Of a stretch of 64,000 nucleotides of DNA, positions 37,136 to 42,729 are shown one piece after another. The translations under genes were made by a program, and so were the position numbers. Numbering within the stretch: the first letter of the stretch is position 1; every line of letters begins with the position of its first letter. Origin of the DNA: Pycnococcus provasolii (lineage: Eukaryota > Chlorophyta > Pseudoscourfieldiophyceae > Pseudoscourfieldiales > Pycnococcaceae); NCBI GenBank assembly GCA_938743325.2, contig OW568881.1, positions 1 through 64,000 on the forward strand. The letters run 5' to 3'. A model generated the notes under the pieces. That model was not told the DNA's origin, did no database searches, and saw only the letters and a program-made list of their open reading frames with translations.

Positions 37136-37295
37136 GTTTCTGTTCCTTTGGAAGGCCCGAAATGGAAAAGGGGGGGGAGAGAGGGGAAACAACAGGGGGC
37201 GACCCCTAGGAAGCCTACCGCCTGCGACGACACGACAGAGGACAGAGGGCAGAGGGCAGAGCACCGACTGTCCGAGGAAGGGAAGGAAAAGACTA

Positions 37296-37529
37296 GAGGG
37301 AGCTCCTGGGTATAAGAAATGACATTTCGTGGGTATAGCGAACTTTTGGTCGAGACATTTGGTCGAGACAACTTTCAGATTAGGGTTTAACTTGGCCTCG
37401 ACCATTTTACTGTTATAAACCTAACCCTAACCCTAACCCTAACCCTAACCTAACCTAACCCTCCCGACCAAATTTGTCCAGAATCGCTATACCCACGAAA
37501 TGTCATTTCTTATACCCAGGAGCTCCTTC
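37296..37529. mobile_element. MITE-like element: 46-bp terminal inverted repeats, TA flanks, telomeric core
   Basis: The left arm 37296-37341 (GAGGGAGCTCCTGGGTATAA, then GAAATGACATTTCGTGGGTA, TAGCGA) and right arm 37484-37529 are inverted copies differing at one base. Each arm is flanked by TA (37294-37295 and 37530-37531), as expected for a TA target-site duplication of the Tc1/mariner type. The 142-bp interior has a tandem TTGGTCGAGACA pair and an inner TTGGTCG echo, one TTAGGGTTT, and a CCCTAA array with about six units (37421-37462). No coding capacity. Non-autonomous by inference. It sits in the 571-bp divergent PEX22/SMG7 promoter; the rest of that promoter is GC-rich with nothing else seen. 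Confidence 0.7.
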
Positions 37530-37706
37530 TAATAAGGAAAAGCAGGGAAGGGGAGCAGATCAGACCACAACAGCCTTGCTGGAGGAGGGAAAGCTAACCC
37601 CTAATAACTCAGTCACGTGTGGTTTTCGTGTTTTTTCCAAACCCCCAAACGGATCCTCCTCCTCATAGTATTTTCGTGCTCCCTCGTCCCCCCTCGTCTC
37701 ACTGAG

Positions 37707-40397
37707 ATGGCCGCGCACCCCGGGCATGGTGGGCATGGTGGGCATGGCACCCACGCCGCCGCGCACAACCACACCTCCTCGCTCACGTTCGGCGAACTCA
37801 AGGCGGCCGCCCAGGAGGTGGAGAAGGCGGTCAAGGAGTCCGCGCGCGAGTGCCGCAACGAGGTGCTCAGCACGACCGTCGACGCGGAGGAGGTGGCGGA
37901 AAAGGCGCGAAAGCACAAAACGCTCTTGACCAAGCTGCGCATGCTCTACGAGAACATGATGTTCGCGGATTACAACGCCGCGCAGGTGTACGACGTCGAA
38001 ACCAAGCTGTGGAAGGGCATCTTTCACCCCAAAATCAACGAACACCGCAAAAAGCTAGCCGCAAAGGCGAAGGAGCTCGACGAAAGCCGGCCTACGCCAA
38101 CGCGACAAGCCACAAAGGCTGACCCCAGTCAAACAACGACGCAGCACTCCGAGAAGCGATTTGAAAAGGCGCTCAAGGATTACCAGAAGACGGGAACGAC
38201 GTTCAGGTCGTACCTGAACGAGACGGCGATGTTCTACCAGCGCGTCGTCATCAAGCTGCAGGAAGCGTTCGGCGACCGCGGCGTTTACGTCACCAGGCCG
38301 TCCAACTTCGCCTCCAACTCGAACGTGCAGCTCCTGCCGCACCAGAGAAATGTTCCTAACGTCGACGCCACGAAAAGCCTTTTTCGAAGCCTCGTGAGCC
38401 TTGGCGACCTCGCGCGATACGTCGAAACGTGCACAGCCGAGGCGAGCGCGGCGGCCGCCGCCACGAAAGAGACGTCGCCGTCGGCGATGGTGGCTGCACA
38501 CGCGCGATGCGACTACAGGCGCGCGGAGCAGTACTACGTGCAGGCGCTCGCTCTGTGCCCTGGTCAGGGAAGTCCGCACAACCAGCTCGCCGTGCTTTCG
38601 ACGTACTCCGGCGATCCGCTCAGCGCGGCATACCGGTACGTCGTTTGCATGCGAGCGCCGAAGCCATTCACCACGGCTCCGGACAATCTCAAGGCGCTTC
38701 TCGGGCATGCCACGTCGAAAGGCGCCGCGATGGCCAAAAGGGATAATGGAGCTTCGAGCGAGCAGGCGAGCGTGCAGCGCAGCCGAATCAGGCAGAGACT
38801 GCTGGTGCTCATGGGGTCACTTGTCGCAGGCCGAGGCGAGAATCCGCTCGGCGGCGGGCCGCTCGGATCGTTCGATGCCGACATGATCGCGCTCAGGGCT
38901 GACTTTCAGAAACTGATGGGCGACGACAAAATGAAGGCGGCGAGGCGCCTCGAGGCATTCGCCGCGCCCACGCTAAGCAGCCTGACGGGACCGTCCGTGC
39001 TGACGATGATGGTCGCCGTGGCACTGCTCGAGATTGAATCGCCTGGCGAGGTGATTGCGAAGACGAGGAGCGGCGCGTCGCAGACGACGCAGGAGGACGA
39101 CCACTTCGCGAGAGAGGCACGATCGAGCGCCGCCGCGCTGCTCAGCTTGATCGTCTCGCTCTGCGCGTCGAGCGCGATTGCGAGCGCTGGCGGTGACGCC
39201 GATCGGCTCAGTCGCTCGTCATTCGGCGCGCCGCTGCTTCTGGTGCTTCGGTGGCTGGCAACGCCGGCTGCTGGCTCCACCACGCCCGAGGGGCTGAGAA
39301 TACGTCACGAGATCGCGGCTCGGATGCTGGACCGCGAAGTTGCCTGGAAGCCTCTCGCGCAGTACCTGGAGGCGCTCCGTGCGTCGCGCAGCCTTGCGGC
39401 GCCGCGCTGGGCGGTGCCGGAGGACCTTCACCTGCCTTACGGGCTTGTGGCGCAGACGACGGCGTCGTCAGCGTCGAGCACCAGCGGCAGCACAGGAGGC
39501 AGTGGATTCGATGTCAACGATGCCGCCGTTTCACGATTGGACGAGGATGACGCTCGTGCCGCGCGCGTCTGGCTCGCACTCCGATCCGCACGCTACGTCG
39601 CGCAGTCGCTTCGACGAGCTGCGGTGGCGGCGGGCGTGCGATCCGCGACGGCACCTATTCCGCTGAGGTACGATGCGGCACGCGGTGCGTGGAGCCTGCG
39701 TGAGAATGAGCATGCAAGCGAGGATGGATTTGAGCTGGAGGCGGACTGGGACGAGGAGGTGGATGCGATGATGGACGAGGAGATGGAGGCGGCGCCCGCA
39801 GACTCGCCAGCACCACCGCAGGCGGCCACGGCGTGGGCATCGGGTGGCGCGACGTATCTCGACGACGACGACGACGACGAGGAGGAGGAGGAGGAGGATA
39901 TCGACGACGTGATTGTGTACACAGGACGTGTCGCGCATCCTGCTGCCAACGGCGCCGCCGCCGCCGCCACCGCCGCCGCCGCGCCATTTCCCTCCCTTCC
40001 TGAGCCTCAGCATTCGCCTCACATGTTGGGTGCCACGCCGTCGCTTTGGGCGCCGCAGCAGCCTACTAGCGTGCAAGCGTCACCTGCAGCGGCGGCACCG
40101 TTCGGCGATCTCGTGCTACCGCGAACGGCTGTGCAGCAGCAGCCGCAGCTGCAGCAGCCGCATTCACCATCACCCGGCTGGCTAACGACTATGCCTGCTA
40201 ACGCGGCGAGCGACGCGAGTGCCTTGATGGCTTGGCTAGGCCATGCAACAGCACAGCAGCCAGCTGCCGCCGCGCCACCACCAACGCCGCCACCGCCAGT
40301 GTACACAACGCCACCACCGCCAACACCGCCGCCGGAACTCCAGCAACAGCTGCAGCAAAACGCAAGCCCGTGGGGCACGAAAAACCCGTTCTTGTAA
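37707..40397 (+). CDS. SMG7: SMG7/EST1-family protein (nonsense-mediated decay; telomerase-associated family)
   Basis: 896 codons from ATG 37707; the upstream extension starts at a non-ATG codon. After a Gly/His-rich start the 14-3-3-like/TPR helical domain (about 40-360) is clear: LYENMMFADYNAAQVYDVET, LFRSLVSLGDLARYVE, then YRRAEQYYVQALALCPGQGS and HNQLAVLSTYSGDPLSAAYR, ending RAPKPFTTAPDNL. These are invariant in EST1/SMG5/6/7. There is no PIN domain at the C-terminus; it is Ala/Pro/Gln-rich, so SMG7 is favoured over SMG5/SMG6. SMG7 binds phospho-UPF1 and promotes decay of aberrant mRNA. The family also includes the yeast telomerase recruiter Est1. Confidence 0.83.
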   Translation: MAAHPGHGGHGGHGTHAAAHNHTSSLTFGELKAAAQEVEKAVKESARECRNEVLSTTVDAEEVAEKARKHKTLLTKLRMLYENMMFADYNAAQVYDVETKLWKGIFHPKINEHRKKLAAKAKELDESRPTPTRQATKADPSQTTTQHSEKRFEKALKDYQKTGTTFRSYLNETAMFYQRVVIKLQEAFGDRGVYVTRPSNFASNSNVQLLPHQRNVPNVDATKSLFRSLVSLGDLARYVETCTAEASAAAAATKETSPSAMVAAHARCDYRRAEQYYVQALALCPGQGSPHNQLAVLSTYSGDPLSAAYRYVVCMRAPKPFTTAPDNLKALLGHATSKGAAMAKRDNGASSEQASVQRSRIRQRLLVLMGSLVAGRGENPLGGGPLGSFDADMIALRADFQKLMGDDKMKAARRLEAFAAPTLSSLTGPSVLTMMVAVALLEIESPGEVIAKTRSGASQTTQEDDHFAREARSSAAALLSLIVSLCASSAIASAGGDADRLSRSSFGAPLLLVLRWLATPAAGSTTPEGLRIRHEIAARMLDREVAWKPLAQYLEALRASRSLAAPRWAVPEDLHLPYGLVAQTTASSASSTSGSTGGSGFDVNDAAVSRLDEDDARAARVWLALRSARYVAQSLRRAAVAAGVRSATAPIPLRYDAARGAWSLRENEHASEDGFELEADWDEEVDAMMDEEMEAAPADSPAPPQAATAWASGGATYLDDDDDDEEEEEEDIDDVIVYTGRVAHPAANGAAAAATAAAAPFPSLPEPQHSPHMLGATPSLWAPQQPTSVQASPAAAAPFGDLVLPRTAVQQQPQLQQPHSPSPGWLTTMPANAASDASALMAWLGHATAQQPAAAAPPPTPPPPVYTTPPPPTPPPELQQQLQQNASPWGTKNPFL

Positions 40398-42688: not shown

Positions 42689-42729
42689 CGGGTTAGGGTT
42701 AGGGTTAGGGTTAGGGAAGGGTTAGGGTT
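42689..42729 (+). repeat. Interstitial telomere repeat
   Basis: Four perfect GGGTTA units, a one-unit disruption (GGGAAGGGTTAGGG) and a partial unit, 86 bp before the RRM-FHA ATG, with TTAGGG on the coding strand. Confidence 0.85.

Follow-up and report, generated by a model that had tools for sequence, protein, structure and literature searches.

The window, the 64,000-nucleotide stretch of Pycnococcus provasolii DNA that was analysed, carries a 242-bp inverted-repeat element at 37292-37533, upstream of a gene of the EST1/SMG7 family (Table 1). The ends of the element were fixed by alignment of its 12 genomic copies together with their flanks. A repeat search of the window gave arms of 48 nt (37294-37341 and 37484-37531), 98% complementary and separated by 142 nt, and the outermost bases were added from the multi-copy alignment to give 50-bp arms that are complementary at 48 of 50 positions. 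A preliminary description of this DNA had reported an inverted repeat with near-identical 46-bp arms enclosing a CCCTAA array and a tandem TTTGGTCGAGACA pair. All three features were recovered, with arms of 50 bp rather than 46 bp, the array at 37416-37462 comprising 8.2 copies with 92% matches and the tandem pair lying at 37345-37370. Folded as one RNA strand, the element has an energy of -122 kcal/mol, where 200 shuffles average -48 (z -17.3), and the inverted repeat is not a product of chance. The element has no coding capacity, its longest stop-free stretch being 43 codons.

Table 1. Features of the element and its surroundings (positions in the window).
Feature	Position	Strand	Basis
Left target-site duplication, AAGGAAAAG	37283..37291	.	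9-mer identical on both sides of the element; other copies have different 9-mers
Left terminal inverted repeat, 50 bp; begins ACTAGAGGGAGCTCC; two TGGGTATA subterminal motifs	37292..37341	+	Repeat search, copy alignment
Tandem pair TTTGGTCGAGACA, continuing the inverted repeat inward, imperfectly	37345..37370	+	Repeat search; related TTTGGTCGAGA stretch in diverged copies
Telomeric tract, (CCCTAA)n on the + strand; TTAGGG inward from the right end	37416..37462	+	In 12 full and 4 diverged copies
Right terminal inverted repeat, 50 bp; begins ATTAGAAGGAGCTCC on the - strand	37484..37533	-	Repeat search, copy alignment
Right target-site duplication, AAGGAAAAG	37534..37542	.	Copy alignment
EST1/SMG7-family gene, neighbour, outside the element	37707..40397	+	Pfam EST1_DNA_bind and EST1 over cut-off; start by coding model

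The family of the neighbouring gene, named in the preliminary description, is borne out by matches to PF10373 (EST1_DNA_bind, 3.3e-16) and PF10374 (EST1, 1.4e-9). Its likely ATG at 37707 was placed by the coding model; with the element end corrected, the distance between them is 173 bp, in place of the earlier figure of 178 bp. The same description had cautioned that proximity to a gene of this family may be coincidence. Nothing supports a link, this being one case among 12 copies, and there is no evidence for more than coincidence.

Copies and target-site duplications

The element's own genome (32.3 Mb in 46 contigs) was searched with 234 bases of the element, which gave 12 full copies and four diverged partial copies. 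Four of the 12 are identical across all 234 bases used as query. Between them the 12 copies show 10 substitutions in 2902 sites, a mean divergence of 0.34%, counted without indels; the four diverged partial copies and a degenerate end on contig C6 are outside this set, and the replaced left end of copy L039 (12 columns) and the first three columns of copy L040 were not scored as changes, though kept in the 2902 sites. The family is recently active and was amplified in a recent burst. The preliminary description had asked for a search with the arm: allowing up to three mismatches, the arm pattern has 22 matches genome-wide, all within the 12 copies, of which 10 match in both arms and two in a single arm, so the arm is not single-copy. 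The reversed control gave 0 matches, and the viral contigs contain no exact match to a 31-base arm pattern.

Exact 9-bp target-site duplications were found at the ends of eight of the 12 copies, and their sequence varies among the copies: ACCCCGGGC, AAGGAAAAG (the window copy), GTTAGGGGA, GGGAAGGAT, GCTGAGCTG, GAGACTGCT, GGAATTCGG and ACCCCGACA. In L040 an exact 9-mer, GCAAAAAAG, lies outside a terminal rearrangement of about 10 bp, and the duplication of L041 matches at eight of nine bases. L036 and L039 have no target-site duplication; the left flank of L039 is similar to many other places in the genome.

These duplications bear directly on the class of the transposon. The preliminary description had noted TA on both sides of the arms and proposed a Tc1/mariner-type MITE, for which TA duplications were to be sought in aligned flanks. 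In the window, TA does lie beyond the ends of the 46-bp arms, as that proposal would have it. Similarity among the 12 aligned copies extends further, however, reaching ACTAGA at the left end and TCTAAT at the right end, which places TA inside the shared termini: CTAGA is present at the left in 11 of 12 copies, missing only from L039, whose left end is replaced, and TCTAAT at the right in all 12. The TA is thus real but part of the element, the duplication lies further out, and the flank alignment shows 9-mers instead of TA duplications.

Empty sites were sought with the joined flanks of the 12 copies, 40 of the 110 candidates being scored. The join of copy L035 is spanned by six paralogous sequences (95-99%), each with a single GCTGAGCTG and no extra bases at the join; the one on contig C8 has a 5-bp difference eight bases beyond it. 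For L042 there is one empty site, on C17, which matches at 94% and is interrupted by a 7-bp gap close to the join. None was found for the remaining 10 copies among the 40 of 110 candidates scored. The empty sites are paralogous, not allelic. Judging from three of the six that were fetched at full length, L035 sits inside a gene-less repeat of about 630 bp with imperfect arms of about 75 bp, CAAGGGG ends and 7-bp flanking repeats. This host element was at one stage regarded as hAT-like, an assignment that was dropped, its flanking repeats being best read as 7 bp. Examples of the host repeat lie at L079:20-649 and L092:109-739, in L079 about 45 bp from a telomeric array.

Since the TA flanks are element sequence, the true duplications are 9-mers and each of the six L035 empty sites has one 9-mer, Tc1/mariner was rejected; its chance of being correct is negligible. 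The one mariner-type family tried, PF01498 (HTH_Tnp_Tc3_2), has no match over its cut-off of 31.5 genome-wide and one 24-bit match below it. What stands of the earlier proposal is that the locus holds a MITE-like transposon copy; its 9-bp duplications and ends resemble those of Mutator-like elements.

Relationship to resident Mutator-like transposons

Duplications made by Mutator-like elements (MULEs) are 8-11 bp long, typically 9 bp. The MULE transposase domain has 18 matches in the genome, 13 over the cut-off, and 16 of the 18 lie in open frames of at least 733 codons. Four of the resident families have long arms: family A (67 bp) has perfect 10-bp duplications in four of four copies, B (96 bp) has perfect 10-bp duplications in three of three, D (126 bp) has a 9-bp duplication, and E (at least 113 bp) has the 9-bp duplication AAAAATCAA in the single copy read. 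Copies of A, B and E (L052-L055, L056-L058 and L061-L063) are 98.9-100% identical with intact long ORFs, and these families are apparently recently active. A second group consists of families G, H and I, whose proteins are 36-44% identical, and a remnant, J. Family H, found at C14:291300-296300 and on C23, has an 813-aa ORF, the ends ATTAGAAGGG...CCCTTCTAAT and the 9-bp duplications GATGAGTTC (C14) and GTCACGGGG (C23). Exact 9-bp duplications also flank I (TAGTATGAT) and J (TCAAAACAT), and that of G matches at eight of nine bases.

The ends of the MITE resemble those of the second group. Its right end begins ATTAGAAGGA and H begins ATTAGAAGGG, nine terminal bases, ATTAGAAGG, being common to both. 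The consensus of the MITE ends is A-[CT]-T-A-G-A-[AG]-G-G, followed by two TGGGTATA subterminal motifs per arm; by eye, a motif near positions 16-25 recurs near 38-48 in the MITE and likewise in G, H, I and J. Over the first 25 bp the right end of the MITE matches H at 16 positions, a value reached by 0 of 20000 shuffles, and matches G, I and J at 13, 14 and 12 (P 0.0008-0.009). The left end gives 14 matches with H (P 0.0012) and 12, 13 and 13 with G, I and J, the four values spanning P 0.001-0.026. Either MITE end against A, B, D or E gives 3-7 matches (P 0.46-0.97). The MITE and family H have the outermost 9-10 bases and the length of the duplication in common, and the spacing of their paired motifs is similar. 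They differ in the rest of the arm, where H has a GGGGTCCAC motif rather than TGGGTATA, and H has its long ORF and no telomeric tract.

The assignment to MULEs was made because of the 9-bp duplications and the terminal likeness to elements with intact MULE-like ORFs. The proteins of H, G and I score 19.7, 20.0 and 15.1 bits against PF10551, below the cut-off of 27.6, and this is the only domain matched by H and G at E 0.01 or better (I, 0.031). Family C, which scores 32.1 bits and so exceeds the cut-off, has a blastp match to G at 6e-10 and thereby bridges G, H and I to the MULE domain; comparison of H, G and I with A, B, D and E by hhalign gave no match.

The sub-threshold scores of the nearest resident clade leave some room for a different superfamily, one whose duplications measure 8-9 bp, such as Merlin (8-9 bp) or an atypical hAT (8 bp). 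The likeness of the ends to family H and duplications of 9 bp rather than 8 make this very unlikely. Merlin was rejected on a search with DDE_Tnp_IS1595, which had no match in the genome at E 0.01, and the duplications of the MITE are 9 bp long where those of hAT elements are 8 bp.

A transposase-bearing element with complete 50-bp MITE arms was not found by an end search of the genome with a diverged 80-base end; its best-scoring candidates were at least the 12 copies, the four diverged ends and one further degenerate end. The partner was also sought with PF10551 and the H and I proteins. Ends were read for families A, B, D, E, G, H, I and J, and none has the arms in full. L075 and L076, two fragments with relatives in families I and G, have ends unlike those of the MITE; L075 showed no arms, and in L076 the right arm continues up to the limit of the sequence retrieved. 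No MULE remnant was found around the diverged copies, with nothing at E 0.001 in L047-L050, L069 and L073 (tblastn, nine proteins against nine loci). We infer which transposase may mobilise the MITE: the G/H/I clade is the likely partner, and the exact partner may have been lost.

In plants and other eukaryotes MULE MITEs have, like the element described here, a short gene-less form, long arms and 9-bp duplications, and occur as near-identical dispersed copies mostly beside genes. The present element differs from those known in having a telomeric core in all copies and 50-bp arms that match no resident autonomous element fully. We hold with high confidence that it is a non-autonomous Mutator-like MITE, the core of which is a passenger acquired once, before amplification, and followed by a recent burst.

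Genomic setting of the copies

Coding calls were made with a codon-usage model trained on ten ORFs of the window, six of which have Pfam matches. By this model six of the 12 copies lie between divergent gene starts and 10 have at least one nearby gene start facing away. No confidently scored ORF is split by any of the 12; the edge of L036 is overlapped by a weak 80-codon ORF, and some joins are crossed by stop-free frames of up to 412 codons that were not scored as coding. A preference for divergent promoters was not apparent when the six of 12 copies were compared with the 41% of non-coding bases of the window so placed (P 0.36).

Origin of the telomeric core

The preliminary description had left it open whether the cores are always telomeric, and had offered capture of telomere sequence by a MITE as one option. 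The tract is present in all 12 full copies, and in the four diverged partial copies it adjoins a similar right arm; capture is supported by this occurrence in both sets. Three of the diverged copies lie in shared subtelomeric DNA, about 8 kb or less from a contig end. The contig ends L047, L048 and L049 have in common a subtelomeric block containing a half-deleted MITE relative, and near the telomeric tract the left breakpoints differ.

The tract occurs in both subfamilies and must therefore have been acquired before the family split. A single capture, preceding both the split into two subfamilies and the amplification, is thus supported by the sequences. In the mechanism we propose, a transposase from the G/H/I clade of resident MULEs would recognise the ends of the MITE and excise it, and insertion at a 9-bp staggered cut would generate the 9-bp duplication. 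The progenitor would have gained its core once, before the two subfamilies separated, in a genome rich in short interstitial arrays, and the burst would have come after the capture. The core may have been supplied by an interstitial array adjoining an arm of the progenitor, or by telomerase acting on an abortively repaired break.

Interstitial telomeric arrays in the genome

Telomeric sequence is abundant away from the MITE. There are 2626 and 2591 overlapping matches to TTAGGGTTAGGGTTAGGG, chromosome ends included, whereas the reversed control has 0 and 2. On contig C1, which has no MITE copy, the 100 places listed comprise 38 separate plus-strand arrays in the first 1.29 Mb. Extrapolated on the assumption that the other strand and contigs are alike, the density is about one array per 17 kb, or about 1,900 genome-wide. 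In the samples read the arrays are mostly outside scored ORFs. Besides the MITE the window has three clusters of at least 18 bases, examples of its arrays lie at 42690, 51728 and 59852, and no other array of the window lies in a recognisable MITE copy by a search that skips simple repeats. Positions 1-367 of the window are a chromosome end, a near-perfect CTAACC array followed by degenerate telomere-derived repeat. In a genome so dense in arrays the progenitor could pick the tract up from its neighbourhood.

The other option in the preliminary description was that such elements seed the interstitial repeats. Each copy does carry an array. Set against this, there are 12 copies to some 1,900 arrays (the extrapolated figure), and the 38 arrays of C1 lie on a contig without a copy, therefore the element cannot be a general seed; we regard this origin as extremely improbable.

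Telomeric repeats in other MULEs

Capture of a passenger has a competitor in a functional tract, ie one in which MULEs use TTAGGG/CCCTAA near their ends as a binding site, promoter element or targeting signal. Three (A, B and E) of eight non-MITE families have a telomeric score of at least 40 in the terminal 200 bp, as do 8.4% of non-coding 400-bp windows (P 0.024). This background comprises 83 such windows, all taken from a single 64-kb window that has few arrays, and the score cut is one of six tabulated. The MITE was left out of this test since its telomeric core had prompted its choice (with it, four of nine, P 0.0045), and families C and F, for which no arms were found, are not among the eight. 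Scrambled control units score at most 21 in B and E; in A, which has a degenerate array, they reach 44. B and E have telomeric repeat in both arms, and three of the 12 MITE copies are within 100 bp of another array of at least 12 bases (P 0.008-0.017 with a background of 3-4 clusters). The both-arm repeats lie at L057:364-459 (B) and L062:1-113 (E) and are of opposite polarity.

Against a function, families D, G, H, I and J, which include the MITE's own clade, lack a telomeric tract, and polarity is mixed, TTAGGG reading inward in B and the MITE and CCCTAA inward in A and E. Nor is the orientation of arrays relative to genes consistent: arrays in the window are CCCTAA-sense, and a sample of 14 from C1 is mixed (six TTAGGG-sense, one CCCTAA-sense, two at divergent starts and five without a clear gene start). 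A promoter box had been suggested by the uniform CCCTAA sense of the window arrays toward the downstream gene; it was not upheld in the C1 sample and was dropped. A functional tract is accordingly considered improbable, and the weak enrichment at the ends of other MULEs is a lead. Telomeric arrays also lie near two other MULE ORFs for which no arms were detected, at L064:4068-4109 and L059:679-734, within about 420 and 90 bp of the ORF.

One place to which the lead may point is repeated gain of telomeric repeat at the ends of MULEs of this lineage, by telomerase acting on 3' ends exposed in excision and abortive gap repair, which we think improbable. A published model has telomerase add repeats at breaks in 5' regions (the parts available of PMC3022908). 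Applied to a MULE gap, the model predicts TTAGGG inward from the arm, which fits the MITE and B and does not fit A and E. If it held, the MITE, in which TTAGGG reads inward from the right arm and a single unit does so from the left, would have arisen in this way and then been frozen and amplified. Some of the dense interstitial arrays would be traces of old transposon breaks.

Comparison with known elements and implications

The element has partial parallels. The telomere-bearing elements (TBEs) of Oxytricha, reportedly described by Herrick in 1985, are said to be bounded by C4A4 telomeric repeats. The TBE is a Tc1/mariner DNA transposon carrying telomeric repeat, according to the portion available of PMC4724952. 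Both it and the present element are thus DNA transposons with a telomeric repeat; the TBE is of the Tc1/mariner type and bounded by the repeat, whereas the element here has an internal tract and a 9-bp duplication. Like telo boxes, for which an origin by telomerase at breaks has been modelled, the element places telomeric motifs in 5' flanking DNA; as far as the available parts of that source go (PMC3022908), telo boxes are single repeat units, in contrast to the multi-unit arrays found here, one of them mobile, which have no consistent orientation.

Among the papers found that link Mutator elements, MULEs or MITEs to interstitial telomeric repeats, none has a title or abstract opening that describes a MULE MITE with a telomeric core. 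Nor is one described in the available portions of papers on telomeric Penelope-like elements (PMC4522978), ciliate MITEs of another superfamily (PMC9942856) and a poplar telomeric tract (PMC7465354). The element represents a new MULE-MITE family with an unusual telomeric core.

Its class is corrected from mariner to Mutator-like, and it provides a family that was active recently, whose copies can be dated and whose empty sites are built in. Through it a transposon brings a ready-made telomeric array into gene-flanking DNA, and the origin of interstitial telomere repeats becomes testable in one small genome.
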